IMG/VR virus record: IMGVR_UViG_3300037427_002023
Span: 1 to 25,116 of that record
Strand: one strand, 5' to 3'
Origin: a virus
DNA length: 25,116 bases
Numbering within the stretch: position 1 is the stretch's first letter; each line of letters begins with the position of its first letter. Of the stretch, positions 3,765 through 25,116 are shown piece by piece. A model generated the notes under the pieces. The model was not told the origin of the DNA. It made no database searches and saw nothing but the letters and a program-made list of their open reading frames with translations. The translations under genes and the position numbers were made by a program.

Positions 3765-6700
3765 TTATTTTTTAACTATAGTTACACTGAACCCATACGA
3801 TTCAGAGAAACCTGTTCTTTTATTATATATTAGCCTTAAATCAAATGGATTAGTATTTAATGTTTTTGACGATACATTCTCATTAATAGTTAACCCAGAT
3901 GTAATTTTTGCTTCATTTGTTAATTGTGCAGTACTGTAAGTATCAGGTTGATCATCCCTAGATGCTAAAGTATAAAAATCAATTCTTTCAATTTTATAAA
4001 GCTTTAATATATTTTCTTCAATGTATCTATTCACATCATCATCTAAAGTTTCCAAATTACCCCAACCATATAAGTCTTTTACGTACTTTTCAAATTGTTC
4101 TTTAATCGGAGGAAAGAGATATTCTATTAATCTTTTTTGATTAAAAAGATAAAATGATACAGTAGGTGCTGATTGTCTTTTCTTAATAGCTTGAATACTT
4201 CTTCCATTAACAGTATTTACTTGTCTCTGATTAAATGTTACTGAAGGAGTATCTTGATACATAAAGGTACCGTCAATTAAACTCGGTTGTTTTATAGCAG
4301 CCTTAACAAAAGGATCAGGTGTAAATGTTTCTAAAATTATTTTCTCTGGTACCTTTAAAGACTTAGATCCAAAAAATGATTTCTTTTCTTTCATTGATCT
4401 TGTACCAATTACATCTTCAATTAAAGTCTTGTCAATAGTTTTAATAAAATATGAAGGTTCCCAGTTAGAAGAAAATGCATAAAAATCTTTATAGTCAATA
4501 GCCCACTCATTAATTAAAGGATACAAACTTGGAAATGCACTTTCTGCTGATAGCTCCAATATAGTTGATGGATCTTGTTCATTTACTTTATGGTAAAAGA
4601 AATTCTTTAATTGTCCAAAATTAGAATCAGAACTAAAGAATTGAGTATTTTTATATTTACATAATTCTAATACCTTAAGTTTATAAGCTTCATCATTAAT
4701 TATACTACCTCCAGTAGAACTACCGGTAGAACTACCAGTAGAAGATCCTGTACTTCCTCCACCATTAAAATCTATATTCATATAAGGATCCCTAAATGAT
4801 AATATAGATAAAGCAGTAGGTTGATAATATCCTGCATGCCTACCTATAGGAGTAAGCCTAGGTGCTTTTTGTAATGAAAGATCATAACCAATAACATCAG
4901 TTAAATTAAATGCTGTTGGTTTATTAGGATCAGGTAAAACTCCTACATATACAGCTTTAAGTATATCTTCTTGAGCTCTAAGTTCAATTGAAAAAGTTTG
5001 AGATAAACTACCATCACTGTTTAAAACTTGATTACCATCTTTGTCTATTGTTTGGTATACTATGTTAGGATTACCCATGTTCACAGCTTCAAATATTTCA
5101 GCAAAACCAACTTGGTTTAATCTATTTTGGTATGCATTAAACCCTCCTTGTAAAATTTTATAATTGGATCTTATTAAATTAAAAGTACTTGGGGTAATAT
5201 TAGGTAATAACCAATTTGCACCATTACGAGTTACTGTTGCTGCTATTAATGAAGATTGTGAAACTATTTCTTGTATATTACTAATTTGATAAGTGGCTCC
5301 ACCATCCTCAAATTCAATTGTAGGAAAGGATCCATCTAAACCAATGGTTAAATCATCAAGGAATCTAGTAGGATTTCCATTTACATCAGGTACACCATTA
5401 ATTTGATAGAATGATCCTACAACTTGAGCATTATCAAATCTAATAGCCCCTTGTAATGTACTATCTAAATATTGAATTGGAGTTACTGGTGCACAATTAG
5501 AATCCACTTTATATTTACTTTCCATTGAATATAAAGAAGTTCTATCAATTATTTCAGCACCACCATTTAAACAAGGATCATCAAATTTTAAAGAAATTAA
5601 CATAACAACAGTTTTCCATTTATCATTCTTAATAAACTTAATTTCTGTTTCAGGCTTATCCGGTAAATTAGGTACTAATATAGCTGAGAACCTATATTCA
5701 TTAAATTCCCCATTAGTAACATAAGATAGTGATGCATTATCAAAATCAGGTTTTTGTGTTCCTATTGCTTTAGGTTTAGCTATAATTCTAACACCTCTCA
5801 AAAAAGTTTCTGCAAAATTCTTATCATCACCACCATTAAATCTACCATATCTTAATTGCCTATCTATTTCAGCAATACCTCCTGTAGTAAATCTTTCAAC
5901 AATAAAATAATCATTAAAATAATTTTTATCTACTCTTTGGAATGTACCTGGAATTAATGGTGTCCCAGCTATAGGATCAGCTGGTATATCATCAGTAGGT
6001 GCTTTATCAATATAACTCCATGAGCTCTTTATTGCATCTTGTGTAAAGTAAGTTGGAAATTCCGATAAGTAATACCATTCATGAGTATATCCACTAGCTA
6101 CTTGGCCTCTATCCCATTTAGATGGCGCAAAATTATTTAATCCAAAGGCTTCACTTAAATCTAATCTATAAGGATGATTCCTAACATCTTTACCATCATT
6201 AACCCAAGACCATTTATTTATATAAGGTATGACTCTTGATATAGCAGCCTGTGAAGTTAAAAAGTTTTCTTCTAATCTAATATATTCAGATGCTATATAA
6301 TCTTGTACTACATCCTCAGGAGAAGATGGTTTTAATAGTCCCACTAAATTAAAAAATCCACCAGTATCATAAAATTTTCTAATTTCTGGAGTAGAACTTA
6401 TTCCTATATAATCTGGCCCGTTAAGACCTGGTACTGACTGATTATATTGAGCTTTTTCAAAAACCAATTCACCTTCTTCGCTGTAAAGAGTACTATAAAA
6501 ATCTACATCAAAATCTCTAACATCAAAAAATGAAAATCTACCAAAAGATGGTTTATAGTCAGAATAGAGTGCAACTTGGTTAGAGCGACTTACTTCTATT
6601 TGATTATCATTACATGTAATTATAACATAAGTATCAATATTTTCATAACCTATTTGATTATTAAAGTTATCATATATAGGCTCATCAGTATAAGGAACCC

Positions 6701-8801
6701 AGTCTCCTATTTCAGCATAACCTCCAGTTGTCTGTACAAAGTTACCTTTTACGAATCTTTTTTGGCCTCCATTTTTAACTTTTAATAAGGCATTCTTTGT
6801 ATCATTGCCACCAATAAAGTTTTGTTTAGGTGAGGTTAGTGTGGCTAAAGGGTGTGACTGTAAAGAATCAAATTGTGTAGGATATGCAACATCTAATTTA
6901 AAACTTAATTGATTAAACCTAGACCCACCATTTCTACATATGACATAAACAGTATCATCATTATATGAAGCTTCAAAAAATCTATCATTTTCATTAATAC
7001 CTTTATTTATTGCAGTTGTTATTGCTTGTGCAACTTCCTGAACAGTACCAGTAGGATTAAAAAAGTTTTGAGTAGATTTTCCAGGTGTAGGAGCCAAAGC
7101 AGTATTTGCTGTAATAAAACCAGTCAAATATACACCGTCATAAAAATATATTGTTGATCCATTAGGTATATGTTCTACTACTGGAGTAGGTGAAGTAAAT
7201 TGAATATTACTGTTGTTATCTAAAGTAACATCATTATTTAATGTGATGTTTAAAATAACAGGATAGCTTGGGGAGGCAGTTAAGCCAGAATAATCATAAG
7301 AAACACTTTCTATAAAAGTATCAACAGGTATAATATTAGAAGATGAAAGAGAAGTTACTCTTGCACCAATTAAAACATTTCCTGATGGGGAATATAATTG
7401 AACAGTATTACCTGCACTAACAGACTGTTGTCCTGCTGATATTGGCCAAGGGCCTACTCCTGCCAATGCAGCACCAGGTGCTGCTGGAGTTTCTGTAGGA
7501 TTTCCAATAACTTTCATTGACATTTGTGCCAAACCTTGTCTACTTATTATATTAGCATTGGCATAAGTGTCTGGTTCCTTATATCCAGTTAGTAAAGAAA
7601 TATCAATTTTTTTATCAAATAATCTTAATTGATCTGTTCCCCATTTTGATCCTTTTTTAATAGTATGAAAATCATCTTCTTTATCCTTAACATAAAAAAT
7701 TGATTCAACTTCATTTACTCTATTAGGTGTAGGTAAACCTGTTATGGTTGTAGTTTTAGCAGGATCTAAGAAAAGTAAAATACCTTCTTCATTAGTTATT
7801 TCAAATGGGGTATTTAAAAACTGTGATACTTCGGTAATAGTTTTTATTTTTGGTAATTGTGTTTTTTCTGTATTTTTAAAAAATCCTATACCTGATAAAT
7901 CAAATGAACCTTCTTCAACTTCATTTACATACATACCAAAGTAACGATTAAGAGAATAATCTGGTGCTTTTGGATCATCAAATAAAAATTCTAAATTTAA
8001 AAGATTAGCTAAGAGAATACCATTATTTTGAAACCCTTGTGTAAAGAAATATTCATTTTCCATTATTGTAGCATCTTTACCTACTAAGTCATTATAAGAA
8101 TAACTACCGCTACTTGTAAAACCTCCACTATTATAAGATATACCATTCCATAAAATAGGTTCATCTTTTCTCCAACTAATATTTAGAGGTACTTCGGGAA
8201 ATTCTTCTTGATTTCTATAATTCCTAATATAAGATCCTAGTTTGGTACCTTCAGATAAATCAAAAGTTTTAATTGCCGTACAATTTTCTAAAACTTGTTT
8301 AGAAAAATTTACTGAAGTTTGTGCATTAGTTGCACCAGCATTTTCTGTCGCTGCATTAACATTATTAACCGCTGCAGGATTATCTAATCTAAAAATTACA
8401 AAATAATTAGGTATTTGTTCATTTAACCATAGCGGTGCCAATGTACCTAAGCTTTGGCTATAGCTTTCAGATGCTACAGATCTAGTACCTGCACTATAAA
8501 ACATTTCATATTGATTTCCATAAGAACTTAAAACTGAAGTATTTTCAAATTCTTGGAATACTTCATATGCTGCTTCCTTAGGAAATTTACCTGAATTAAA
8601 AAATCTAAAAACATCCTCATCATAAGTATTTGTACCATCAACTTTAAATGCTTTATATCTCTGAGAAGATAAACGAGTATTGGCACTAAACGATTCTAAG
8701 TAAATATCTGTACCATCAGATACAACCTTTACATTACCTGTTAATTTAGGATTAGTTCGAATTAAACTATATGATGCTTTGTCAAATAGGTTTTCAGCCA
8801 T
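3765..8801 (-). CDS. Very large baseplate/tail structural protein, 1678 aa
   Basis: This is the largest gene in the window. There is no signal peptide, membrane segment or enzyme motif. The protein is rich in Asn, Tyr, Phe and Asp and mostly beta-like, as expected for a peripheral baseplate or tail protein. Around residues 440-640 lies a Ser/Thr/Val-rich region containing a small module (GTVQEVAQAITTAIN, then DDTVYVICRNGG) of the kind seen in modular tail proteins. A Gly/Ser/Thr linker near residues 1344-1363, encoded by a 12-nt tandem repeat, separates the main body from a C-terminal ~310 residues with charged helices (EQFEKYVKDLYGW). The start is ATG after an SD-less leader that can form a 9-bp hairpin with the start codon. 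Its place after the wedge genes suggests an outer baseplate component. I do not recognise a precise T4 counterpart, and at about 1.7 kaa it exceeds any T4 baseplate protein. Confidence 0.85.
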   Translation of the reverse strand: MAENLFDKASYSLIRTNPKLTGNVKVVSDGTDIYLESFSANTRLSSQRYKAFKVDGTNTYDEDVFRFFNSGKFPKEAAYEVFQEFENTSVLSSYGNQYEMFYSAGTRSVASESYSQSLGTLAPLWLNEQIPNYFVIFRLDNPAAVNNVNAATENAGATNAQTSVNFSKQVLENCTAIKTFDLSEGTKLGSYIRNYRNQEEFPEVPLNISWRKDEPILWNGISYNSGGFTSSGSYSYNDLVGKDATIMENEYFFTQGFQNNGILLANLLNLEFLFDDPKAPDYSLNRYFGMYVNEVEEGSFDLSGIGFFKNTEKTQLPKIKTITEVSQFLNTPFEITNEEGILLFLDPAKTTTITGLPTPNRVNEVESIFYVKDKEDDFHTIKKGSKWGTDQLRLFDKKIDISLLTGYKEPDTYANANIISRQGLAQMSMKVIGNPTETPAAPGAALAGVGPWPISAGQQSVSAGNTVQLYSPSGNVLIGARVTSLSSSNIIPVDTFIESVSYDYSGLTASPSYPVILNITLNNDVTLDNNSNIQFTSPTPVVEHIPNGSTIYFYDGVYLTGFITANTALAPTPGKSTQNFFNPTGTVQEVAQAITTAINKGINENDRFFEASYNDDTVYVICRNGGSRFNQLSFKLDVAYPTQFDSLQSHPLATLTSPKQNFIGGNDTKNALLKVKNGGQKRFVKGNFVQTTGGYAEIGDWVPYTDEPIYDNFNNQIGYENIDTYVIITCNDNQIEVSRSNQVALYSDYKPSFGRFSFFDVRDFDVDFYSTLYSEEGELVFEKAQYNQSVPGLNGPDYIGISSTPEIRKFYDTGGFFNLVGLLKPSSPEDVVQDYIASEYIRLEENFLTSQAAISRVIPYINKWSWVNDGKDVRNHPYRLDLSEAFGLNNFAPSKWDRGQVASGYTHEWYYLSEFPTYFTQDAIKSSWSYIDKAPTDDIPADPIAGTPLIPGTFQRVDKNYFNDYFIVERFTTGGIAEIDRQLRYGRFNGGDDKNFAETFLRGVRIIAKPKAIGTQKPDFDNASLSYVTNGEFNEYRFSAILVPNLPDKPETEIKFIKNDKWKTVVMLISLKFDDPCLNGGAEIIDRTSLYSMESKYKVDSNCAPVTPIQYLDSTLQGAIRFDNAQVVGSFYQINGVPDVNGNPTRFLDDLTIGLDGSFPTIEFEDGGATYQISNIQEIVSQSSLIAATVTRNGANWLLPNITPSTFNLIRSNYKILQGGFNAYQNRLNQVGFAEIFEAVNMGNPNIVYQTIDKDGNQVLNSDGSLSQTFSIELRAQEDILKAVYVGVLPDPNKPTAFNLTDVIGYDLSLQKAPRLTPIGRHAGYYQPTALSILSFRDPYMNIDFNGGGSTGSSTGSSTGSSTGGSIINDEAYKLKVLELCKYKNTQFFSSDSNFGQLKNFFYHKVNEQDPSTILELSAESAFPSLYPLINEWAIDYKDFYAFSSNWEPSYFIKTIDKTLIEDVIGTRSMKEKKSFFGSKSLKVPEKIILETFTPDPFVKAAIKQPSLIDGTFMYQDTPSVTFNQRQVNTVNGRSIQAIKKRQSAPTVSFYLFNQKRLIEYLFPPIKEQFEKYVKDLYGWGNLETLDDDVNRYIEENILKLYKIERIDFYTLASRDDQPDTYSTAQLTNEAKITSGLTINENVSSKTLNTNPFDLRLIYNKRTGFSESYGFSVTIVKK
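4713..4760 (-). repeat. 12-nt tandem repeat encoding a Gly-Ser-Ser-Thr linker
   Basis: Four consecutive 12-nt units lie inside the 1678-aa gene: AGTAGAACTACC at 4713, GGTAGAACTACC at 4725, AGTAGAAGATCC at 4737 and TGTACTTCCTCC at 4749 (+ strand). The first two differ by one base and the last two have diverged. They encode GSTGSST-type repeats near residues 1347-1363. The unit is a multiple of three, so gain or loss of copies would change linker length without a frameshift. It is most simply a flexible interdomain tether. Confidence 0.85.
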
Positions 8802-8856: not shown

Positions 8857-11800
8857 TTACAGAGTTAGTGGTCCTTGTCCACCGTCAACATTGGTAAGTT
8901 GAGTAAATCTATCTACCGCTACTTGATTCAATGAAGGTCTTAATCCAGCCACTACTTTTTCCAAATCATTTAATCCTTTAGTTACTGTTGCTTTAGGGAA
9001 ATTATCAATACTTAACCTATCAGAACGATATTTAGCAAATACTTCAATATCAAATTGTACGACATCAGAATTATTAGGATAAATATCAAATCCTATTTTT
9101 TTGGAATAAGTTAGATTAACCGTTGATCCTGAATCATCACCAGCAACATTACCTAAACCACTACCTGTAGTTAAACCAAAATAATCAGTCATTCTATATT
9201 GAAATACTAATGGAATGTTTAATGAATTTTGTTGACCAAATTGAACAAATTCATATGATTGCGTTGAATCACCTTCTACTTGAATATTTTCATGATCATC
9301 AGCAGAAACAAATAAATATGAACCACAAGACTGTTCACCTAATAGATATTGGTCAAAACTATCAAAAGACGTTTTAGCATTTCGGCTATAATTAACATAA
9401 CCTGCTTGTGTAGTATCCCAAAGAACAGCTAAGTTAGCTCCACTTAAAGATGGACTAGCTTGTAATGTTTGACCACTATCAAAAGTAGGATTTAATGTTC
9501 CACCTCCTGCGGGTGTTAATGCAAATAAATCAGTAATGTTTTCATTTAAATATATTCCTTGGCTTTCACCATAAGTATCATCAACCTTTAAAGGTGAAAA
9601 TTTAGAATTCCTAAATAAGACAGCAGCTGTACCATTTCCTGTACCTGCACCAATAGCCGTTGTACAATCAACCGCACCAGTGCCTGGGGCTGGTAATGTT
9701 GTAGTATCTCCAGTTAAAGATTCATATACAGATTTATAAGCAGCATAATTTTTTAAATATGGGTGTGCAATAGAAACTTCAATCAAATCATCACTACCAC
9801 CAAAGAAGCCTGCTGCTGTAGTAGGTGCGCCACCTGCTGTAAATCCACCACTCCAAATAAATTGAGTAGTTGGAGTTGCAACACCAGAATCGGTAGTTCT
9901 TGTATAAAAATTTTCTAAGGTATCTAAATTAAATGTATAATCTCCAGCTGGATTAACATAACTATAAAAATTATTATCAGAGCTAACATCAGAAAATCTA
10001 CTATAAATAAATTGATTTTTATTTTGTGTTGATTGATATGGTGCTAAAGAAACAGTCTGTCCATATCTAGTAGTACTTGTAACTGTAGGGTTAGTTAAAA
10101 GTAAAGGTGTTAAGTCATATTTTCTTATAGTATTATAATCAACATCGTCCCCTCTAAATGTTGCTCTACTATTACTTTGGTTAGCAGCACTGTTATCTAA
10201 CCATGAATAAGTAGCTGGAAGAATAGTAGTACCATTATTTAAATTAGGAGTACCTGGAACAGCAACATCAGCAGGATTTTCTGATTGCCTAACCATTCTT
10301 TTTCTATTACCAGTAATTCTTGCAACTAATTGTAATGTAGTTTGAGATTTATTTCCTATGTTTATAAAATAAGTTTTAGTAATTACTGCTCCTCTTGGAT
10401 CATCCAAACCATCAACTTCTTGAGAATAGAATCCAGCAAATATCTTTGTTGTAGAATTTCTAGCCAACCTCGTGGTATTACCTTGGTCATCAATTAATGT
10501 AGTTACCATTTCACCTTGTGCATTACTTAATATCTCAGCAAATAAATCTAGCTGATTTTGCATTTCGGTTAATTTAGTAAATAAATCAATTGGTGTTTGG
10601 TTTTCGGATAAAAACCCAGATGCAATTACTGGTGTTGAATGAGCAAAATAAGTTTCATTAGCAGTAAAAGAACTACTTAAATGAGTATATAATCCAATAC
10701 CTTCTAATTCTTCTTGTAAAGTTACTTTAGCCAAGTCTTCTTGGTTCTGTGCTAATATTGATTCAACTGCATTATCAGAACTAAGATCTGCTGGAAATTC
10801 AACTCTTATAGCATCACTCCACTCACTCTCTAATGGATTAGATGGCCAGCCTGCTTCTGATATAGACTTTACTTGTATTTCAACTTGCTCCCCCTTTCTA
10901 ATAGGAATATCTAATTGATTAATATTTATAGAATCGGCATTATCATCATCAATAGGAGCCCATTCATATAAGCCTGTAAGTGGATTTCTAACCCTAGGTC
11001 TTAATACACTATCTACTTGAGCATAGTTTGAAAAAGCACCTTGGCTTGTTCCATTACCATCTACAAAAGTAAATTGATCTACGGGGTTAGCTGCACCATC
11101 AGCAGAAAGATATCTATAACGATATTTAAATTTAACAATATCCTGTACACCTGTAGATGGAGCAGACTTTTCTTGCGGCATAGCCCAGAATCCTCTTACT
11201 CTATATTTAGGTGTTATACTATTAATTGAATTATCTTGAGCCGATGCATCTATTTCTGTTACTACAGATGCATACAACTTAGAAGTTGATGCTCTCTCAG
11301 TTATAAGTCCTTGTAACGCATTCTTATCTGCATCTCTTTCAACCTCTGTGCTGTAATTAGTAGTTTGTATTTTAGTTCTACTTTGAGATATAGCAGTATC
11401 TAATTCAGTTAATTGCGCCTGGTTAGTATTCTTCTGGTTATTTAAATCTTTAAGTTGTACAATAGCATCAGAATTACTAACTTGCCCATTAATTAAAGAA
11501 ACAGAAAAGTTATCAGCAGAAAGCGTTGGTGCATTAGGAATTAAACCTTCTCTGCTTGTTGGTATTTTATCTTGAGCAAATGAAAGTAAATATCTTCCAA
11601 AATCAATAGCACTCTGTTGATAATAATCAGCCAATGTTTGTTGATTACCAGCTGCATCAATAGTATTTAAATCATTAGTATAAAAACCACTACCTGGAGA
11701 CCAGTTAACTGCTGGTATTTTAGAATTTGGATCAATAGGCTTAATAAAAGTTACACACCTTTCTCCAAAACCTACAGTAACATCTACATTTAATTCATCA

Positions 11801-12738
11801 TTTAAAGAAGATCCTATTTTTAAAACATCAGCACCAATACTTATAGTTTTAGAACCTTCTTGTAATTTTACAATAATAGAATTTGTGCTACTATCAATCC
11901 TAGATACAGTATATCTAGTATCAATCGGAGATGAGACTACTTCTAAGCTATCACCAACTTTAAGTTGAACAGTATCATCAAAATCCGCTTCAGAATCTGT
12001 ATAAAATATTTTATTTAATTTGTACACCTTTTGTGTAGTTGTTTGATTTACACCATTTACAGTTTCAGTTACGCTTTCTTCAGAAATTCTAGTAACACTA
12101 AACATTCCAGAATATCTCAATTCTCTTGGTGGTAAATCAACTACAGCTTCATCTAATACATAAGATATATTTTTCTCTACAATCTGCTGTAAGAAAGTAT
12201 CATAATTAATATCAGCTGCCCCGTTATAACTAGAGTCAAAGAAATTGGTTTTACTTTGTGTATTAGTATCTAATATAAATCTTTTAACAATACATCTTTC
12301 AGTATCAATAGGTGCTTGGCCTGTTATATCAAATGAAACAAATAATAATGGATTAATTAGTTCTTCAAAAAACCAATTAGGCTTTACATTAAATTCATTA
12401 ACAGATGTCATAGCAGTTAAATCAGCGGCCTCAGTAGGAAGCTTAGCTAAAACCAATTTTCTAAATGTACCATCAGGTAATCTTATAGAACTATCAGAAC
12501 CATTAAAATTAGTAATAGTATTGATATTACTCTGTAACCTGTCAACTGAATTTTTAAGAAAACCAAAACTAGGAATAGTTACACGAGAATTTGTTCCATT
12601 TTGATTCTGTATATTTACAGTAACGGACTCTCGGCTTGATGTAATCGCTTGGTTAACTTTCTCAAAGCTCTCCAATGAATTGTTAAAAAGTCTTAACAAC
12701 TCCGGTAACATTGTTTGTATTGAATTATTCTCAGCCAT
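8857..12738 (-). CDS. Large structural (baseplate-associated) protein, 1293 aa
   Basis: The N-terminal ~100 residues are helical and Ser/Asn-rich (LPELLRLFNNSLESFEKVNQ). A beta-rich region follows, then a predicted coiled coil at about 424-500 (LKDLNNQKNTNQAQLTELD onward). A fibronectin-III-like domain at about 522-647 is suggested by alternating strands and by the IPIRKGEQVEIQVKSIS segment followed by SEWSDAIRVEFP. The last ~600 residues are Asn/Thr/Ser-rich and beta-structured, with a final acidic segment (DIEVFAKYRSD) that may be an exposed fold. No catalytic motif is visible. FN3-like domains are common in tail and baseplate proteins, where they are thought to bind surface sugars or act as spacers. 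The gene follows the 706-aa gene by 21 nt and uses an SD-less leader. No T4 homologue is evident; gp10/gp11-like roles are possible by position only. Confidence 0.82.
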   Translation of the reverse strand: MAENNSIQTMLPELLRLFNNSLESFEKVNQAITSSRESVTVNIQNQNGTNSRVTIPSFGFLKNSVDRLQSNINTITNFNGSDSSIRLPDGTFRKLVLAKLPTEAADLTAMTSVNEFNVKPNWFFEELINPLLFVSFDITGQAPIDTERCIVKRFILDTNTQSKTNFFDSSYNGAADINYDTFLQQIVEKNISYVLDEAVVDLPPRELRYSGMFSVTRISEESVTETVNGVNQTTTQKVYKLNKIFYTDSEADFDDTVQLKVGDSLEVVSSPIDTRYTVSRIDSSTNSIIVKLQEGSKTISIGADVLKIGSSLNDELNVDVTVGFGERCVTFIKPIDPNSKIPAVNWSPGSGFYTNDLNTIDAAGNQQTLADYYQQSAIDFGRYLLSFAQDKIPTSREGLIPNAPTLSADNFSVSLINGQVSNSDAIVQLKDLNNQKNTNQAQLTELDTAISQSRTKIQTTNYSTEVERDADKNALQGLITERASTSKLYASVVTEIDASAQDNSINSITPKYRVRGFWAMPQEKSAPSTGVQDIVKFKYRYRYLSADGAANPVDQFTFVDGNGTSQGAFSNYAQVDSVLRPRVRNPLTGLYEWAPIDDDNADSININQLDIPIRKGEQVEIQVKSISEAGWPSNPLESEWSDAIRVEFPADLSSDNAVESILAQNQEDLAKVTLQEELEGIGLYTHLSSSFTANETYFAHSTPVIASGFLSENQTPIDLFTKLTEMQNQLDLFAEILSNAQGEMVTTLIDDQGNTTRLARNSTTKIFAGFYSQEVDGLDDPRGAVITKTYFINIGNKSQTTLQLVARITGNRKRMVRQSENPADVAVPGTPNLNNGTTILPATYSWLDNSAANQSNSRATFRGDDVDYNTIRKYDLTPLLLTNPTVTSTTRYGQTVSLAPYQSTQNKNQFIYSRFSDVSSDNNFYSYVNPAGDYTFNLDTLENFYTRTTDSGVATPTTQFIWSGGFTAGGAPTTAAGFFGGSDDLIEVSIAHPYLKNYAAYKSVYESLTGDTTTLPAPGTGAVDCTTAIGAGTGNGTAAVLFRNSKFSPLKVDDTYGESQGIYLNENITDLFALTPAGGGTLNPTFDSGQTLQASPSLSGANLAVLWDTTQAGYVNYSRNAKTSFDSFDQYLLGEQSCGSYLFVSADDHENIQVEGDSTQSYEFVQFGQQNSLNIPLVFQYRMTDYFGLTTGSGLGNVAGDDSGSTVNLTYSKKIGFDIYPNNSDVVQFDIEVFAKYRSDRLSIDNFPKATVTKGLNDLEKVVAGLRPSLNQVAVDRFTQLTNVDGGQGPLTL

Positions 12739-15553: not shown

Positions 15554-18500
15554 TTATTTTATATTTAAGATATTTCTATCCTTTTTATATTTATTCCCAT
15601 TGTTATCAGTAAGTTCTAACGTGATCACATATCTTCCTGGGTTCTTAAAAAGATAGGTTAAATACTTACTATTGAAATATATATCCGCTACCGATGAGTC
15701 AGTAGTATTAGATATAGTCCATCTCGGTTGTTCCTTACCAACTATTCTACATTTATCATAAACAAACATTGCCCATGTCATAGGAGGTAATACTTTACCA
15801 TCATTAATAAATTTAGCAGTATTCCATGTTGCATTACCGGATCTGCTTTGCCCTTCTTTATAAATTCTACTTAAACAATCTACATTTCCACTTATTGGAG
15901 TATTTTCAAAAGGAACATATCCAGATAATCCTCCAACAGCAAACATTGAATCCAAAATAACAGTAGAAGGTTTAGCTAATACTTTACTTATATAATCAGT
16001 ATATAGTGCATGACCTAAAGGGTTTTGTGAAGCTACTAGAGCTGGGGTAGTAGCCGTCCATTCAGGTGCTAAAGAACCTCCGCTTACATAAGTAGTAATA
16101 AAATTCCATTCTGCATAAATTAATAAGTATAAATATTCTCTCATCAATAAAGCATTAAATTCATCTAAAGTCTGGCCAGGCTGTTGTGTATAAGCTGAAG
16201 TATCAAATGTTCCATTATTAATTGCTTCAGACATAGCTAAAAATGTAGGACCAAAAGATGAAGTCTGATTAAAAACAGTAGGATATGCACCTGGTAAACC
16301 AAATGTAGTTAGGGTATGTAAAGTATGTTCTAATACTTCTGTTATCTGATCATTAGGAGAACCTGAACTCAATTCCCAAATAAAGTCAACATTAGCATTA
16401 TTATCATTTGTGTTATCCCAACCAGGATAGGTTTCTAAAGAAGGAGTATAATCTCCCATTCCATTATATCCTATTCTTTGAATAGTCTTTTTAGTTTGTA
16501 AAGATTGTAGAATCGCCGCCTGTTTATTATATGTAATTCCTGTTGCATCTGGTTCTAAGATCATTTCATATACTCTTGCAACTTTTTTAACAAATTCATC
16601 TGTAACTGGATTAGTTCCACCTAATGATGGTAATGCTACCAAAGTAGATCCATTAATTGCTAATGATCTGTCAAAGGGTGGATATAGTGTTGAAGTTTGT
16701 AAAGGCCCTCCAACATAATCAGTTCCTGTTCCTGTTGATGCTGCACAGATTCTAACTCCATTTACATCAACTATATCAACAGAAGTAAAATCTCCAAATA
16801 CTCCATAATATCTAGAGACTGCCTGTACAAAAACCTGATTATATGATGAATCTAAAACAAGATTATAAACATACTTATTTATGATAGGATCTGAACTTAA
16901 GTTAAGTTGATTAACAGCCTCACTTAAAGTATTAGTAGCAAAATCAAAATAATGTTGTCCTGTTTGTCCATTTTTATCTACGATCTTTAAATATGAATTA
17001 GGTTTAATTTCACTAAATTGAAAAAATGCAGGAGTATCTCCAGTACATTGAGTCATATCCCACCATAAGTGATATGCATTATTCCAAGTACTGCTTGTTG
17101 TATTTAAATTCTTCCATTGGTATGGTCCTGTAAAACTAGCCTTTCCATTATCTTGAAAATTAAGAATTTGAAAATCAGCATTTGTACCAATTCCAAAATT
17201 ATTTAGAATAGCATTAACACGATCAAGAGATTCATATAAGCTAGGAGTTTCATCATCCCATGTTATTGTAGGAGATTGTGGTAAGTTCCATAATGCACCA
17301 TAATTTTTCCATGTATATTTACCTTCACTACTCCATGTATAATTTAACTTCCTTGCTTGGTACCAGCCAGAATATTCAACTTCTCTAGAATCAACACATA
17401 TTGTAGATTCTTTAACCAAATTAGAAACATTATTATACATATCATATAATCTCATTTCAACTGTATACTCACCTACATAAGGTAATGTGACTGGTAAACT
17501 ATTGTAAATTCCAATAGCTCCTCTTATATTAAAATAATAAGCAGGAGAAATATCAGTTTCGTCTTTAAAGATAGTCCACTCAATTTCAGCCATGTTAGCA
17601 TATTTTAAACCATCCCATGTAAATAAAGTTTCTCCTGGTAATTGAATATCAGTAAATTGACCACCTGTTCCTGCCGTTGCTAATTGAACTTCAGCTACAA
17701 ATCTATTAACATCATTTCCATAAGCTCTGATACATGGGCCAATATCATTTGTAACCTGAGACCAATCAAACCATAACCAAGGTTCCGTTTGAAGATTCTT
17801 AAGTGCTACTATTTGATTAAATAAAGAAGTAGTAATTATTTGAATAGTATCTCCAAAAACAACAGTATGACTAACTGAGGTTGATGTTGCAGGATCACTA
17901 ATACTATATACATCCCCAACTAGGGCTCCTTGTACATTAAAGTCAAATGTAAAGAAATCATTAGCATTAGTTAATTGATCCCATGTACTATTTATAGTGT
18001 CCCAAGTTATATTAGAAAAAGTATCATTTTCTAAAGTAACTAAAGCACCACTAGGAGTGCCGGGTTGATCTGGTAAACTTAATGATGATTCTCCTGGAAC
18101 ATAATCAGCTAATGTTCTATCCAAATCAGGAGCATATCTAGAAAAGTAAGCAGCATATACTCCAGCCACTGATTGAATAGATACATTTCCTCCATCTTGT
18201 AATGTTCCTAATACACTATTAACATCAGGTCCTATCGGTGGAGCAGGTAAAGCTTGGCCTGGTGTATATGAAGCTACCATATTTGCACCAACAGCAGCAC
18301 CACCTGCGCCTAATGGTGCAATGTAAGCATTACAATAATTTATTATTGCTTTACCAACTATTGCAGCTTCTTTTAAACAAAAAGATTGAAAATCTCTTAA
18401 ATCTTCTAAATATAAACATTCATTAGGTAGTGTTTTAAAAGATGCCTTTACTCCTGCTTGTATAGTATTGGTATCATTTCTACTAATTGTATTTGTAACT

Positions 18501-19678
18501 TCTAATAAACCAAAAAAATCAGCCTCTGCTGTTATTCCTTTTATATGAGCATTAAGTGGTAAATATTCATTCTCTAATTTTCTTTTTAAACCAAATAATT
18601 TAATAAGCGTTTCTTCTATAGTAAATTCTTGTACCTCCTTAGTAATAGGCAAGTCTTCATCTGTAAACTTATTAGGTACAATTTTATTAATTCTATAGAT
18701 AAGTTCAAACATACTAGTTTTCCTAAAGTTCTTATTAGGTAAAGTTATCTTCCTATCATCAAATTGAGCAGTAGGAGAAAATAAATCTATAGCACTACTT
18801 TGAATATACTTTCCAAATGTTGGTGAATTTGCATTTACATTTTTCCAGAATTCTTTAACTTTTAGAGTATCATATCCAAAAAATTTGATTGCATTTATTA
18901 AACCTTTATATGCACCAATAAAAGGATATATGTTAGACCCTTCTAACATTATCTCTTTACGCTTAAGATTTATTTCTACATAATCAGGTAAAACTTCTTT
19001 TATATTAGTATCTTTAAAAACAGTACTATCTGAAGCAATAACATTATAACCTAGATTCTGGGTCATAACTCTTAATCTTTCATCTTCTTCAATACTTTCT
19101 GCATAAACAGTAAATTCTGCAATTATAGTATTAGTACATTCATCTGTTATAGTTAAAGTTCTTTTATAGGTATTTTCTATTGGAGACGAGAATGCAATAT
19201 TAACTTGCATTGCAATAGATCTTATTTCATCAGTAATAATATACCCTTCTCCATCTACCTTTTGATTTATATCAAAATCTAAAGGTACATTTACTTTAGC
19301 TAACTTTATTAAATTAGGACCATCAGGTTCTTGTACCAAAGCAGATTGTGTACCAGTGATAAAATCCATATCAAATTTAAATAGAAAAATTTGAGATGGA
19401 TCATCTGTCTTCCAATCTACAACCCAATCACAAGCAGCTTGCCCAGTAGGTTCACCAGTAGGTGCATCAGTATAGCCATGTGGATATCCCCACTCAAAAG
19501 CACTTGTAGTGGAGTTAATCATTTTTTGTAAAATAAATAATTGACCTACTTCAAATAAATCAATAGAAACTTGAGAAATAAAAATATCACCCGTCCACTT
19601 ATCAGCAGACTTGTCATATTCCATATTGTAATTCTTCCCATTTTTATCAAAGAAGTATAAGTGTTCCCAGTTCGCCAC
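15554..19678 (-). CDS. Gp7-position baseplate wedge protein, multidomain, 1374 aa
   Basis: The start is GTG (19676-19678), six bases after the 89-aa stop; no in-frame ATG fits the packing better. The N-terminus (NWEHLYFFDKNGKNYNM) leads into a beta region. At about residues 244-280, a segment with KGLINAIKFFGYDTLKVKEFW resembles the tail-protein-I-like part of contractile-tail wedge proteins. Later regions are Trp-rich (YTWSSEGKYTWKNYG). They include a PKD/Ig-like domain near 700-760 (YVGEYTVEMRLYDMYNN) and a second one at the extreme C-terminus (FKNPGRYVITLELTDNNGN). T4 gp7 is 1032 aa and follows gp6; this protein follows gp6 after one small gene and is larger, so gp7 equivalence is inferred from position plus the gpI-like segment. 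The PKD-like ends could contact neighbouring wedges or the cell surface. Confidence 0.78.
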   Translation of the reverse strand: MANWEHLYFFDKNGKNYNMEYDKSADKWTGDIFISQVSIDLFEVGQLFILQKMINSTTSAFEWGYPHGYTDAPTGEPTGQAACDWVVDWKTDDPSQIFLFKFDMDFITGTQSALVQEPDGPNLIKLAKVNVPLDFDINQKVDGEGYIITDEIRSIAMQVNIAFSSPIENTYKRTLTITDECTNTIIAEFTVYAESIEEDERLRVMTQNLGYNVIASDSTVFKDTNIKEVLPDYVEINLKRKEIMLEGSNIYPFIGAYKGLINAIKFFGYDTLKVKEFWKNVNANSPTFGKYIQSSAIDLFSPTAQFDDRKITLPNKNFRKTSMFELIYRINKIVPNKFTDEDLPITKEVQEFTIEETLIKLFGLKRKLENEYLPLNAHIKGITAEADFFGLLEVTNTISRNDTNTIQAGVKASFKTLPNECLYLEDLRDFQSFCLKEAAIVGKAIINYCNAYIAPLGAGGAAVGANMVASYTPGQALPAPPIGPDVNSVLGTLQDGGNVSIQSVAGVYAAYFSRYAPDLDRTLADYVPGESSLSLPDQPGTPSGALVTLENDTFSNITWDTINSTWDQLTNANDFFTFDFNVQGALVGDVYSISDPATSTSVSHTVVFGDTIQIITTSLFNQIVALKNLQTEPWLWFDWSQVTNDIGPCIRAYGNDVNRFVAEVQLATAGTGGQFTDIQLPGETLFTWDGLKYANMAEIEWTIFKDETDISPAYYFNIRGAIGIYNSLPVTLPYVGEYTVEMRLYDMYNNVSNLVKESTICVDSREVEYSGWYQARKLNYTWSSEGKYTWKNYGALWNLPQSPTITWDDETPSLYESLDRVNAILNNFGIGTNADFQILNFQDNGKASFTGPYQWKNLNTTSSTWNNAYHLWWDMTQCTGDTPAFFQFSEIKPNSYLKIVDKNGQTGQHYFDFATNTLSEAVNQLNLSSDPIINKYVYNLVLDSSYNQVFVQAVSRYYGVFGDFTSVDIVDVNGVRICAASTGTGTDYVGGPLQTSTLYPPFDRSLAINGSTLVALPSLGGTNPVTDEFVKKVARVYEMILEPDATGITYNKQAAILQSLQTKKTIQRIGYNGMGDYTPSLETYPGWDNTNDNNANVDFIWELSSGSPNDQITEVLEHTLHTLTTFGLPGAYPTVFNQTSSFGPTFLAMSEAINNGTFDTSAYTQQPGQTLDEFNALLMREYLYLLIYAEWNFITTYVSGGSLAPEWTATTPALVASQNPLGHALYTDYISKVLAKPSTVILDSMFAVGGLSGYVPFENTPISGNVDCLSRIYKEGQSRSGNATWNTAKFINDGKVLPPMTWAMFVYDKCRIVGKEQPRWTISNTTDSSVADIYFNSKYLTYLFKNPGRYVITLELTDNNGNKYKKDRNILNIK

Positions 19679-19955: not shown

Positions 19956-21812
19956 TTAATTTCCTTTAAGTGCTTTTAACGTTGGTGAATCTTGTAACCT
20001 ACCTGTATTTAAACCTCTTGCATTATTTCCAGTAGCAATAGTAGTTCCCCTATTACGTTGAGCTTTATTATATTTTTCTTGCTGTATTTTATTATAAAGA
20101 TTATTTGGAATAGCTTCTTTATAGAATACATTTAAAGAACTAATTTTATTAGCTTCAGGTATAGGCTCATAGAAGGTACCATTTCTGTCTTTCCACCCTC
20201 CTCTTATAATAGCTAATTCATCATTCCCAATAAGAACATCACCAAAACTATCTAATCCTAATTGAGGATCTTCACCTTCTTTTAGTACAATCTTTTTGTT
20301 TTCAATTAAAACTCTTTGGTCAGTTACAGGATCTGTGCCATACACTTTTACAAAATAAAAACCATTTCTAATTGCTTCTTCATTCTGTTCTGAAATAAAG
20401 AATACATTTACAGAATCTACACCTTCTACATTTTCAATAATAGAAATAATATCCGATCTTGGAATTCTATCTCTTCTATTAACATTTAAGAAATAATCAT
20501 CTAGGTTCTTTCTAATTTCTACTCTTATGGCATCTTTATCAAAATTTTCAAAATATCTTATTACAACATTCAGAGCATACTTTCTAATAATAGGATCCTT
20601 GATTCTAACCTCAGCAGTAACAACCTGTCTTCCACTTTTATTTAAAATTTCATAAGTCATTTCCTTTTCAGCATCAGTCATAGTAAATTCTACTTCTGGT
20701 ACATTAAAGTAATCTAAATCGCTAGTTAATTTTTTCTTTACATCAGGAATTAAAAATAAGTAAATAATATTATCATCATCTAAGTATTGATCATTCTTTG
20801 TATTGTAAGCATCTATAAAAGACCAAAAATCATACTTGCTTAAATAGTAAATATAATTATTAGGATTAGCTAATACAAATGAATTACTTGCATACGGTGC
20901 AATTAACCTAGTAAATGCAGGATCTTCAGAATTAGAACCAAACATAGGATTTCTTGTAATGTTTAATGCAAGAACTTCATTTAAATCTACTTGCTCACCA
21001 GATGAATCTGTACCTGGTTCAGAAAATTTAATATCCAATTGTTTTCCTCCAATGTTTCCAGCACTTCCTCTTGTCTTAACATAAGTTACTCGTATTCTTG
21101 ATCCTAATGCTGGAGGTTGTCCAAATTGATTATTTCCAAAGAATACACTTAATCCTCCATTAACACTAGTTTTAACCATAGCGCATTCCTCGCCATTATT
21201 CATATCATAAATAGATTCTTCTAACTTCCATCTTTTACCATCTACAAAAACTTCAACTAAATATTGATCGGTAGGCTCCTTTGTAGTTAGGTTATAACTT
21301 TGTAAAGCTAAGCCAGTACCAGTAAATGATTGATCTTCCTTTTCTCCTTGTATAACCTCAACATTTATAAATGCCGAGTTTGTTTTTTCTAATCTTATAA
21401 AATCACTATTAAATCTTAAGAAATAAGTTAATCCATTATTACCTATTTCAAAACTCGAACCATTCATAATTTGTACATAGTCACCATTCACAAGGCTAGA
21501 TGCACTTGTATTTAATCTTAATCCAATAATACCTCTTGCAGATATTCCTCTTGTAGGATCATGTCCAGTAAGTCTGGATAAACCATATATGGATTCTATA
21601 TTTCTTGCTCTTGATATATTAAGTTCTGTTGCAACGGCTTCAATATAAAAGAAAATCATTTCACCTAGATTTGCTACAACAGTTAATACTTGCCCAAACG
21701 GTGAAGCAGGTGTAAAAGTTTCTCTTGCTTGGTCGTAAGTACGTTGCAGGTATTCAAATGAATCTTGAAATAACTCAGTGGCTCTTAATCGTGTTTTACT
21801 AAAGAATGACAT
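19956..21812 (-). CDS. Baseplate wedge protein, gp6 / baseplate-J family, 618 aa
   Basis: The length is close to T4 gp6 (660 aa). The N-terminal ~90 residues are helical (FLQ-type YLQRTYDQARETF; VVANLGEMIFFYIEAVATELN), as in gp6 proteins that pack along the wedge. A beta domain at about 92-140 follows (RGIIGLRLNT; NGDYVQIMNGSSFEIG). Near 240-265, RVTYVKTRGSAGNIGG is the typical baseplate-J turn ('x-V-x-Y-x-x-x-x-x-G-x-x-G-N'). Around 411-470, YALNVVIRYFENFDK and RIPRSDIISIIENVEGVDSV match the conserved C-terminal J-like alpha/beta domain, in which a strand and a helix form the wedge dimer contact. In the family, gp6 dimers make the inner ring of the baseplate. The gene sits directly after the gp25-like gene, as in T4-like and Mu-like modules. 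The Asn/Lys-rich tail of about 40 residues looks disordered. Confidence 0.92.
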   Translation of the reverse strand: MSFFSKTRLRATELFQDSFEYLQRTYDQARETFTPASPFGQVLTVVANLGEMIFFYIEAVATELNISRARNIESIYGLSRLTGHDPTRGISARGIIGLRLNTSASSLVNGDYVQIMNGSSFEIGNNGLTYFLRFNSDFIRLEKTNSAFINVEVIQGEKEDQSFTGTGLALQSYNLTTKEPTDQYLVEVFVDGKRWKLEESIYDMNNGEECAMVKTSVNGGLSVFFGNNQFGQPPALGSRIRVTYVKTRGSAGNIGGKQLDIKFSEPGTDSSGEQVDLNEVLALNITRNPMFGSNSEDPAFTRLIAPYASNSFVLANPNNYIYYLSKYDFWSFIDAYNTKNDQYLDDDNIIYLFLIPDVKKKLTSDLDYFNVPEVEFTMTDAEKEMTYEILNKSGRQVVTAEVRIKDPIIRKYALNVVIRYFENFDKDAIRVEIRKNLDDYFLNVNRRDRIPRSDIISIIENVEGVDSVNVFFISEQNEEAIRNGFYFVKVYGTDPVTDQRVLIENKKIVLKEGEDPQLGLDSFGDVLIGNDELAIIRGGWKDRNGTFYEPIPEANKISSLNVFYKEAIPNNLYNKIQQEKYNKAQRNRGTTIATGNNARGLNTGRLQDSPTLKALKGN

Positions 21813-21825
21813 TCAATTTTTTATT

Positions 21826-22188
21826 TTAAAAAAGAGCTCCTATGACTCTTATTTCATTAACAAAAATATCAACTAAACAACCGTCAACTTCAGCAGTGGA
21901 ATAAAATGATACTACTGTTTCAACATTAAATCCACCTTGTTCAGGTAAACAATAAGCCGATATTTGGCTAGTGATATTGTTTGCTATAACTGTTTCACTT
22001 AAGACTAAAGAAAATATTAAATCTTCTAAATTAGCACCCATACCTGGTGCCCCTAATACATCGCCTCGTCTTGTAAAAAGACAATTTTCAATCTTAAGAA
22101 TTAGTTGAGATAGTTCATCACTGACTTCTAAAGTATTCTCATTATACTTAGGAGCCGTTATATCTCTACTATAAATATCTTTAATCAT
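21826..22188 (-). CDS. Baseplate wedge protein, gp25-like, 120 aa
   Basis: The length is typical of the gp25/GpW family (about 110-140 aa). The hallmark segment lies at residues 37-59: FTRRGDVLGAPGMGANLEDL, where a positively charged turn, Gly-x-x-x and the 'G-x-x-L-x-x-x-x-F' pattern are conserved. The remainder alternates strands and helix to a hydrophobic C-terminus (VDIFVNEIRVIGALF). In T4-like phages gp25 joins gp6 and gp53 in the wedge core and bridges to the sheath. The immediately following gp6-like gene (13-nt gap) confirms the context. The family is sometimes labelled 'lysozyme-like', but catalysis is not established, so no enzymatic role is claimed. The leader is SD-less and pyrimidine-rich just before ATG (TTGTTCTCCC), unusual in this window. 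Confidence 0.9.
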   Translation of the reverse strand: MIKDIYSRDITAPKYNENTLEVSDELSQLILKIENCLFTRRGDVLGAPGMGANLEDLIFSLVLSETVIANNITSQISAYCLPEQGGFNVETVVSFYSTAEVDGCLVDIFVNEIRVIGALF

Positions 22189-22248: not shown

Positions 22249-23112
22249 TTATCCAGTAAAAAAGTAGTCAACCCCTTCATCACCTTTAATTTCTTCAACT
22301 ACTCTATCTACTTCATCTCTTCCTTCTGTTGAAATTAAATCATAATTAATAGTAATGTTACCAGGCAGGTTAAACGAGAATGTACCTAAGATTCTTGCTA
22401 ACTGTATTTTAGCCTGTCCAATACAATATCTAACAAATGCTTCATCTTGAAATAACGCACAATCAGGAATCGTTGAAAATATTTCAAAGATAACCGCTCT
22501 TTTTGGTAATTGCCCTTGGAATCTAAACTTTTTAGTTAATCTATTATATGTATAAGATATCTGTGGTAAGAGTACTTGTCTTGTATTATCTAAGAATAAA
22601 GAATTAACTACATAGTACATTAAATTTTCACTACCTATACCTGCACCATACACATCACTATAAATAAATTTGTCAATGGAAAAATCTACATCTCCTGCAT
22701 TAAAACTATAATCACCAAAGCCACCATCTTCACCACTAAAACCGCCTATTTCAAATACATCATTAACTGAATAAACTCTAGATGGCATTGGTACAATTCC
22801 TCTAGGATTATTAATGTTTGCTTTATTAGTAATAGTTTCTTTATCTTTACCAGATCCAAATGGGACTCCTTGTTTAAACTCCTTTGTATGTAATGCTCCA
22901 GCAGGTAAAGCAATATACATCTGTTCTACACTGTCTTCATATATTTTATAAAAATAACCTTTTGCTCTTTGTATAATATGAGCCAATTCCTTTTTAGGAA
23001 CTGTAAACGGTATTTGGCAAGCAATAGTTAGATCATCATTAATTTCTTTTATTAATGCATCTAAACATGCTGCTTCTTCCGGATCATTACAATAAGTATT
23101 TTTGTTAGCCAT
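22249..23112 (-). CDS. Virion structural protein, possibly neck/head-tail connector, 287 aa
   Basis: The N-terminal ~60 residues are helical with several Cys (C8, C16, C32) and KKELAHIIQRAKGYFYKIYE. The centre is Gly/Phe/Asp-rich (GGFSGEDGGFGDYSF). The C-terminal third (FVRYCIGQAKIQLARILGTF, then FNLPGNITINYDLISTEG and an acidic helix) is a pattern I associate, from memory only, with phage neck or connector proteins of the gp13 type. The location, directly before the gp25-like gene after a 60-nt gap, also suits a head-tail connector or wedge protein. That 60-nt gap (22189-22248) is the longest non-coding stretch inside the block; I see no convincing promoter or hairpin in it. Function is uncertain; only 'structural' is well supported. 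Confidence 0.8.
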   Translation of the reverse strand: MANKNTYCNDPEEAACLDALIKEINDDLTIACQIPFTVPKKELAHIIQRAKGYFYKIYEDSVEQMYIALPAGALHTKEFKQGVPFGSGKDKETITNKANINNPRGIVPMPSRVYSVNDVFEIGGFSGEDGGFGDYSFNAGDVDFSIDKFIYSDVYGAGIGSENLMYYVVNSLFLDNTRQVLLPQISYTYNRLTKKFRFQGQLPKRAVIFEIFSTIPDCALFQDEAFVRYCIGQAKIQLARILGTFSFNLPGNITINYDLISTEGRDEVDRVVEEIKGDEGVDYFFTG

Positions 23113-23118
23113 ACTATT

Positions 23119-24411
23119 TTATATTTTTTCTATTTCAATTACTTCAGTATTTTCAAATCTAGCTAATTTAGTAGCTCTACCTTTTCTAAATATACCTCCG
23201 TCCATTTCTCCACTAAAAACACCTCTCATTCCAAAAACATATGAATCTTTGCACATTACATTTTTACTAACATATGAATCTTCAATTTTACAATCACTAG
23301 CATCTGTAGCTCCAAAAAGATTACATTCAGTTACTGAAGTATTTAGTAATTCACAGTTAAAGATATCACATTTAATAAGGTTACCTTGTATCTTACTATC
23401 TACTATATCAATACCAGCTAATTCATAACATCTTAATAATTCAGTATCTTTAATCTGCATTCTACCTGTATCCGCATCATAGTTAATTAAACCTCTTTTC
23501 ATATCTGCTTTTGTTAAAAGTTCAAATATTTTTTCTCTCATCTTAGGATAGAATGTTTCTACAATTTGATCACTTGTATTTAAGTCTACCATTAATCTTA
23601 TATCTGGAAACTTTTTCTTAAATGAAGAATAATCTCTATATGATTGAATAACTCCTCTATGCTTTTCAAGAAGAGAATCTAATTTCTGCAAATCTTTTTC
23701 TGTATAAGTTGGATTCATTAATGATTCATATAAAGATATAACAAAATGCTCAGTAAGATTCATAATAGTATTGTACTTCTTTTCATAATCTTTACCACCA
23801 AGATATCTAAATTCAATATAATTTTTAGGAAGCTTTGAAAAGTTTACCCCATAATACTTTTCTGTAACAAACATATAATTTTTCCATAACCTTTTTTCAG
23901 GAGACGGTTGAGTCATACCACTAAGAGGAACGATAAATTTTATAGATTTTGCATAAACTGAATCTTTTCTATTAGGAAAAGCTTCATAAACTTTTTCTTC
24001 ATTAAAGTTTAAAACAAATTTACCAATATCTAATTTTGAAATATTAACAGGAGTACCTAGTTTACTTCCATCAAAAGCTACATTAATATGAATAGAACAT
24101 CTTTCATTAGTAGATCCATTTTCTCTAATCCACTTTAATGTTTTTGCAATAATAAGTTTTGATTCTACAAACGGCATAGGACCTGTAACCAACTCAATCA
24201 TTCCAGTTCCACCAGAATTATCAGGCTCTAATTTAAAAATTTCATCAGTAGGAGTAAATTCACTATGAGCCTTTTCTTCTATTCGGATCTGTTTATTTAA
24301 AACATTAGATAGGTTATGTTTAACCTCTTCTAATCCTTCATTTGAAAAGAATTCAAATTCTAATCCAATCCTGGAAGAGTATATTGCATTTAATTGTTCG
24401 TTAGAGTACAT
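23119..24411 (-). CDS. Putative amidoligase (COOH-NH2 ligase) fused to beta-helix tail, 430 aa
   Basis: The N-terminal ~230 residues carry the signature of the amidoligase family related to glutamine synthetase and gamma-glutamylcysteine ligase. Residues 16-21 read GLEFEF, with E18 and E20 as candidate metal ligands. EPDNSGGTGMIELVTGP spans 62-78, with D64 and E73. CSIHINV is at 105-111 (H108), and YIEFRYLGG is at 199-206 (E200, R202). These enzymes use ATP to join a carboxylate to an amine. Residues ~230-330 are helical. About 336-410 is a Cys-, Asn- and Ile-rich repetitive stretch (IKCDIFNCELLNTSVTECNL) resembling a pentapeptide or beta-helix fold. The gene follows the S1-like gene by 42 nt and precedes the connector-like gene by 6 nt. 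It has a possible SD (AGGA, 5 nt before ATG) lying in a hairpin arm. The substrate is unknown; a virion protein, a cell-wall peptide or a metabolite are all possible. Activity is inferred from motifs, not shown. Confidence 0.72.
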   Translation of the reverse strand: MYSNEQLNAIYSSRIGLEFEFFSNEGLEEVKHNLSNVLNKQIRIEEKAHSEFTPTDEIFKLEPDNSGGTGMIELVTGPMPFVESKLIIAKTLKWIRENGSTNERCSIHINVAFDGSKLGTPVNISKLDIGKFVLNFNEEKVYEAFPNRKDSVYAKSIKFIVPLSGMTQPSPEKRLWKNYMFVTEKYYGVNFSKLPKNYIEFRYLGGKDYEKKYNTIMNLTEHFVISLYESLMNPTYTEKDLQKLDSLLEKHRGVIQSYRDYSSFKKKFPDIRLMVDLNTSDQIVETFYPKMREKIFELLTKADMKRGLINYDADTGRMQIKDTELLRCYELAGIDIVDSKIQGNLIKCDIFNCELLNTSVTECNLFGATDASDCKIEDSYVSKNVMCKDSYVFGMRGVFSGEMDGGIFRKGRATKLARFENTEVIEIEKI

Positions 24412-24453: not shown

Positions 24454-25116
24454 TTATACAATGTTCATTGTAATTTTTCTATCATTAACATTCACACTAC
24501 CAATCTTAACATTAATAATATCCCCTTTTGCAATTTCTCGGTTCTTTAGTTTTGATTTATGAACTAAACCACTTATACCTTTTTCTAATTCTACAAAGGC
24601 ACCATAAGAAGTTAATTTAGTTACTTTTCCTTCAGTAACCATCATAGGTTTATATTTCTCATCTGCACCATCCCATAAATCAATTTTAGGACCTAACTGA
24701 CTTAATATGATTTTCCTATCAGTAATAATTTCTTTAGTCCAAAATTTAATTTCATCGCCAGGTTTAATACTTTTATCATTTAAAGCATTTTGATATTCTT
24801 CACTTAATTCAGCCTTAGGAATTAACCCAGTTAAACATTCGTCAAATTCAGCAAATACCCCAAACTTAGTAGTACCTGTAACAAAACCAACTTTTTCTTC
24901 TTTAATATTTTCCTTAAGATTTTCAATAGTAGTAGGAATCATTGTTCTTAAATATTCTCTATGAGAAACTACAACAGTGTCTTTTTCTCTAGAGAATGTA
25001 ATTGGCATAACAATTAAATCCTTTCCTACAATAGCATTGAAGTCATGTAATTTATTTAAACCTCCTAATGATCCTGGCATAAAACATTTAATACCTGCAA
25101 CATCTACCCAATAACC
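24454..25116 (-). CDS. Ribosomal-protein-S1-like protein, 5' end beyond window (partial, >=220 aa)
   Basis: The frame is open from the stop at 24454 to the window edge. The 12 codons before the ATG at 25080 read GYWVDVAGIKCF and join smoothly to MPGSLGGLN, matching the S1-domain pattern 'G-x-x-V-x-x-x-G-I-x-x-F-x-P-G-S'. The ATG is therefore internal. Visible domains are the end of one S1 fold (~1-52, ending DTVVVSHREYLR), a second at ~75-140 (KVGFVTGTTKFGVFAEF; ITDRKIILSQ) and a third at ~160-218 (EGKVTKLTSYGAFVELEKG; HKSKL; VNDRKITMNIV). The arrangement and the short spacer LGPKIDLWDG resemble domains 2-3 of bacterial bS1, which bind single-stranded mRNA and help its loading on the 30S subunit. 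A polynucleotide phosphorylase-like or generic S1 RNA-binding protein is less likely. Phage-encoded S1 homologues are known in some aquatic phages. It probably acts in the cytoplasm. Confidence 0.85.
   Translation of the reverse strand, partial: GYWVDVAGIKCFMPGSLGGLNKLHDFNAIVGKDLIVMPITFSREKDTVVVSHREYLRTMIPTTIENLKENIKEEKVGFVTGTTKFGVFAEFDECLTGLIPKAELSEEYQNALNDKSIKPGDEIKFWTKEIITDRKIILSQLGPKIDLWDGADEKYKPMMVTEGKVTKLTSYGAFVELEKGISGLVHKSKLKNREIAKGDIINVKIGSVNVNDRKITMNIV

Follow-up and report, generated by a model that had tools for sequence, protein, structure and literature searches.

The 25,116-nucleotide stretch of the viral record IMGVR_UViG_3300037427_002023 analysed here (the window) raises the question of what an apparent amide-bond-forming enzyme does among phage tail genes. 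The gene lies at 23119-24411 on the minus strand, as do all other features of the window given below, and codes for a 430-aa amidoligase with a beta-helix tail. The ORF starts with an ATG, upstream of which AGGAACTAC is a plausible ribosome-binding site. Over 250 homologous loci were collected, almost all of them viral; a first scan returned 56 IMG/VR loci, and alignment-based scans added hundreds (one found 560 stretches, with 80 kept per scan). Comparison of close relatives gave pairwise dN values of 0.06-0.13 against dS values of 0.7-1.3, and the ORF is thus under purifying selection with dN/dS near 0.1. The contigs with relatives range up to complete megaphages of 735 kb, and full-length relatives at 31-41% identity occur in public genomes of 462-735 kb that are treated as huge phages or megaphages (PMC7162821; PMC9723777). 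When 84,980 species genomes were scanned, only three matches were found, all in MAG contigs and probably viral, indicating that the family is essentially viral.

The sequence-only reading had proposed a glutamine-synthetase-like amidoligase domain, and several lines of evidence agreed on such a domain at residues 1-234 (23710-24411). The window protein itself matched no Pfam family, even at E <= 10. Amidoligase_2 (PF12224) matched 25 of the 73 family members at E <= 0.01. A relative with 45% identity to the window protein and the same operon (L102) scored 26.4 bits against a curated cut-off of 22, and the relative in phage Atu_ph07 scored 30.2 bits, also above the cut-off. In profile-profile comparison with the amidoligases of LUZ24, Porphyromonas and Christensenellales phages, the family aligned over 188 columns with E = 3e-5 when Atu_ph07 was left out, and the DxS, H, R, N and E-F-R positions were matched; with Atu_ph07 among the annotated phage amidoligases, the E-value was 4e-13. 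LUZ24 gp18 (PF12224) has the same catalytic domain and the same motif series, ExE, DxS, H, R, N and ExFR. Multi-sequence profiles succeeded where single-sequence profile comparisons with E. coli GlnA, GshA and LUZ24 gp18 gave no useful signal, as is expected of one-sequence templates.

The AlphaFold model of the protein was confident (mean pLDDT 90, pTM 0.83), with the catalytic domain mostly above pLDDT 90, a flexible flap at residues 160-180 and a helical connector at residues 235-303 (23503-23709) in its secondary structure. The best PDB matches in Foldseek were glutamine synthetases (E = 1.3e-5, probability 1.00, about 12% identity), followed at lower rank by glutamate-cysteine ligase; the TM-score of about 0.3 to glutamine synthetases probably reflects alignments that span both domains. 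These enzymes differ from the window protein in having no beta-helix, and no sequence homology to them is detectable by single-sequence comparison. The order of the active-site residues is of the same kind as in the glutamine synthetase/glutamate-cysteine ligase fold. Viral matches in Foldseek were proteins named amidoligase and one full-length relative with the same two-domain architecture (TM 0.92, E = 7e-38), the uncharacterised A0A6J5PQ40 from an uncultured Caudovirales phage, which is unnamed and has no recorded function.

The four motifs and six residues singled out in the sequence-only reading were correctly placed and numbered in the translated ORF, and DSSP assignment of the AlphaFold model puts E18/E20, E73, H108 and E200/R202 on or beside predicted barrel strands. 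Their conservation was assessed in an alignment of 73 diverse family members, down to about 30% identity. GLEFEF (residues 16-21, 24349-24366) bears an ExE pair on strand 1 of the model, with both E18 and E20 invariant. ELVTGP (residues 73-78, 24178-24195), with E73 invariant, is preceded by an EPDxSGG motif in which E62 is present in 71 of 73 members and D64, S66 and G68 in all. SIHINV (residues 106-111, 24079-24096) contains H108, which is His in 63 members and Gln in 10, and IEFRYLGG (residues 199-206, 23794-23817) contains the invariant E200, R202 and G205. In total, E18, E20, D64, E73, R148, K185, N190, E200 and R202 were found in 73 of 73 members, and further invariant positions were G16, H49, S66, G68, E138, Y153, G205, N310 and R409. 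To this extent, both checks that could have refuted the sequence-only reading came out in its favour. The window protein is almost certainly an amidoligase-family enzyme with an intact active site, and it is very probably also catalytically active. The alternative that a former enzyme has lost catalysis and now serves as a building block of the tail or neck would fit the location among structural genes and the beta-helix architecture. However, a purely structural relic should lose its active-site residues, which here are invariant and more conserved than the rest of the protein, and dN/dS comparison of close relatives showed that the catalytic half of the gene evolves more slowly than the beta-helix half, so we regard such a relic as very unlikely.

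The exchange of H108 for Gln is confined to one clade of ten (L163, L176, L177, L209, L222, L229, L241, L242, L249 and L252), in which the remaining active-site residues are unchanged. This clade offers a natural variant for studies of the metal site or of specificity.

The C-terminal part, residues 304-430 (23122-23502), is probably a pentapeptide-type beta-helix according to the model, the profiles and the alignment, in agreement with the beta-helix-like tail first suggested from the sequence. It forms a run of short strands in the AlphaFold model and matched solved pentapeptide proteins weakly. Among the 73 members, Pentapeptide_4 reached E <= 0.01 in 33 (best 5e-6), with all scores seen below the 38-bit cut-off, and hydrophobic residues were enriched at a period of five (0.73 versus 0.55 in shuffles, 49 of 73 members lying beyond 5% of shuffles). 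The domain shares stacked beta-strands and weak profile matches with the pentapeptide repeat proteins MfpA and Qnr, but it falls below curated cut-offs, is short and is fused to an enzyme. It contains the invariant N310 and R409 and a terminal GGxxRxG motif, and the invariance of these two residues suggests that the domain is more than a passive appendage. A special meaning for the cysteines of this C-terminus, called Cys-rich in the sequence-only reading, was not supported, since its six Cys residues are exchanged for Ser, Ala, Thr or Leu among homologues. Disulfide or metal sites were rejected on the basis of this interchange, which would be expected if the residues were interchangeable packing positions of a beta-helix core.

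The surroundings of the gene were as first described, a tail and baseplate module. Downstream lie genes for a T4 gp13-like neck (head-tail connector) protein (22249-23112; phrog_211, E = 1e-9), a gp25-like baseplate wedge subunit (21826-22188; phrog_43, E = 3e-4; a conserved neighbour) and a gp6-like (J-domain) baseplate wedge subunit (19956-21812; phrog_219, E = 1e-24). The predicted structure of the first product (pLDDT 71) resembled one component of the T4 portal-neck-tail complex as well as gp13-gp14 neck assemblies (E = 1e-10); its PHROGs label is head-tail adaptor Ad2, while the structure indicates a T4 gp13-type neck protein. The upstream neighbour, cut by the window edge, codes for the C-terminal part of a ribosomal-protein-S1-like protein (24454-25116; PF00575, E = 2e-22, two domains) that is about 380-400 aa long in relatives. 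Two more baseplate proteins, one of them of the hub/lysozyme type, are also encoded upstream in relatives. The order S1, amidoligase, gp13-like neck, gp25 and gp6 recurred almost throughout the half of the tree that includes the window, at identities below 40%, with a median gap of 3 bp between the amidoligase and neck genes. After the loci were clustered at 80% identity into 86 representatives (52 on the window side and 34 on the megaphage side), a tail gene was found within 10 genes in 80 of 86, and within 5 genes in all 52 on the window side. In the megaphage half the strict operon is broken in most members, a tail gene lying within 10 genes in 28 of 34 representatives; the amidoligase also lies near a neck gene in two divergent, basal members of this half.

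The S1-like gene directly precedes the amidoligase in 198 of 259 loci, lies within two genes of it in 50 of 52 window-side representatives, and has a homologue in 11 of the 14 records searched. Together with the proposal that huge phages redirect translation via S1 (PMC7162821), this might suggest a role in translation take-over, in which the enzyme, as a functional analogue of RimK, would modify its S1-like neighbour or ribosomal proteins of the host. Yet adjacency to S1 was seen in 0 of 34 megaphage-side representatives, against 28 of 34 for tail-gene linkage, and we consider this role improbable. In megaphages, the S1 homologue has a different genomic location (in LR745206, for example, about 200 kb from the amidoligase), and this loss of adjacency weakens the case for S1 as an obligatory partner. 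Another option considered was that the enzyme makes a small peptide or amino-acid conjugate of the glutamyl-amine type that serves metabolism or helps to evade defence; the tail-operon position would then mean late expression only. The nearest solved structures, glutamine synthetase and glutamate-cysteine ligase, do use small molecules. However, neither the tail-gene linkage kept over great divergence nor a fused domain of the protein-protein type with invariant residues would be expected of a free metabolic enzyme, which makes this possibility distinctly unlikely.

The lack of a nearby glutamine amidotransferase or ATP-grasp partner, already remarked from the sequence, extended to all the neighbourhoods. 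GATase_6 was absent from 13 of 14 records (the megaphage records were searched whole), and the single copy was unlinked. RimK-type ATP-grasp enzymes in 2 of 14 records and GGACT in 4 of 14 were likewise unlinked to the amidoligase. PF14395 was found in 0 of 14 records, in a search without a working positive control and hence no firm negative. In the 14 records, Amidoligase_2 matched this gene and no other, at most once per genome. These findings bear on the cell envelope, for which a phage amidoligase hypothesis has been published with phiEco32-like cassettes (PMC10580990; PMC5498523). The window protein belongs to the same enzyme family and might, as a late enzyme, add or cap amide linkages on the peptides of peptidoglycan and so serve to remodel the wall or to exclude superinfection. 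However, the phiEco32/LUZ24-type cassettes are early modules in which GATase, ATP-grasp and a second ligase stand alongside (COOH-NH2 ligase, GATase, RimK-type enzyme and gamma-glutamyl cyclotransferase in LUZ24), whereas the window gene has no linked GATase or ATP-grasp partner, sits in a tail module and bears a beta-helix, which is not annotated in LUZ24 gp18. An envelope role therefore appears rather unlikely. We rank the alternatives in the order cell wall, small molecule, S1 or ribosome, and dead enzyme.

There are precedents for amidoligase genes in or beside structural modules. In Porphyromonas phages the gene lies between adaptor and neck genes, and in a Christensenellales phage it is near the terminase gene, accompanied by gamma-glutamyl cyclotransferase. 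The closest relative of the window protein in a cultured phage is AUZ94978.1 of the Agrobacterium jumbo phage Atu_ph07, encoded near portal and prohead genes; counted from the portal gene, it would be gp196. It differs from the window protein in having 500 aa, no pentapeptide match and a strand opposite to that of the portal gene, and going by existing annotation it lies outside any gp13/gp25/gp6 operon. Mass spectrometry is reported to place a cluster of virion proteins at CDS 170-215 in this phage (PMC6102473). In the literature searched on amidoligases in connection with baseplates, virion proteomes or pentapeptide repeats, nothing on the present architecture was found.

Computation thus established homology, intact active-site residues, domain architecture and a conserved location. 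The explanation that we tentatively prefer is a catalytically competent Amidoligase_2 ligase acting in the tail or neck morphogenesis of very large phages. By family chemistry, the enzyme would use ATP and metal to activate a carboxylate, for instance that of a glutamate or aspartate side chain, and would join it to an amine. The carboxylate, the amine or both may reside on a tail, neck or baseplate protein of the virion, or on a protein delivered with it; the beta-helix would dock or oligomerise the enzyme at its virion-protein site, and the modification would accompany tail assembly. We infer the virion substrate and the docking from the position of the gene, the missing partner enzymes and the fused domain, and a substrate among virion, tail or neck components is accordingly plausible but still short of probable. 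Against this explanation, operon membership shows co-expression and not the substrate, the S1-like neighbour is non-structural, and most megaphage relatives have the gene outside the strict operon. Neither a Pup-like tag peptide nor a crosslink motif was seen in the conserved neighbours, and the small ones among them showed no conserved GGE/GGQ-type C-terminus. More doubtful is the specific proposal that a dedicated glutamine-synthetase-fold ligase, directed to its site by the beta-helix, covalently crosslinks virion proteins or attaches residues to them, so that virion assembly would include an isopeptide step driven by ATP.

Phage amidoligases are frequent in annotation and barely understood, and published proposals concern wall modification via multi-enzyme cassettes. 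The present family is a single enzyme that belongs to the tail/neck module of very large phages, lacks the usual partners and has a beta-helix arm of its own. If virion proteins are its targets, tail assembly would include a covalent step carried out by an enzyme. Our analysis also gives a name and an active-site map to a gene whose conservation spans marine fragments and complete 735-kb megaphages and which is otherwise unnamed in the sources searched.

Two further features of these loci were recorded. In 21 of 34 megaphage-side representatives, the amidoligase has a gene for a DHH-type phosphoesterase-like protein no more than four genes away (L124:11382-13094, minus strand, and relatives; Pfam DHH, E = 6e-4). 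In the window itself, three giant proteins of 1678, 1293 and 1374 aa are encoded at 3765-8801, 8857-12738 and 15554-19678, respectively; they have no Pfam match, and the first two match PHROGs of unknown function.
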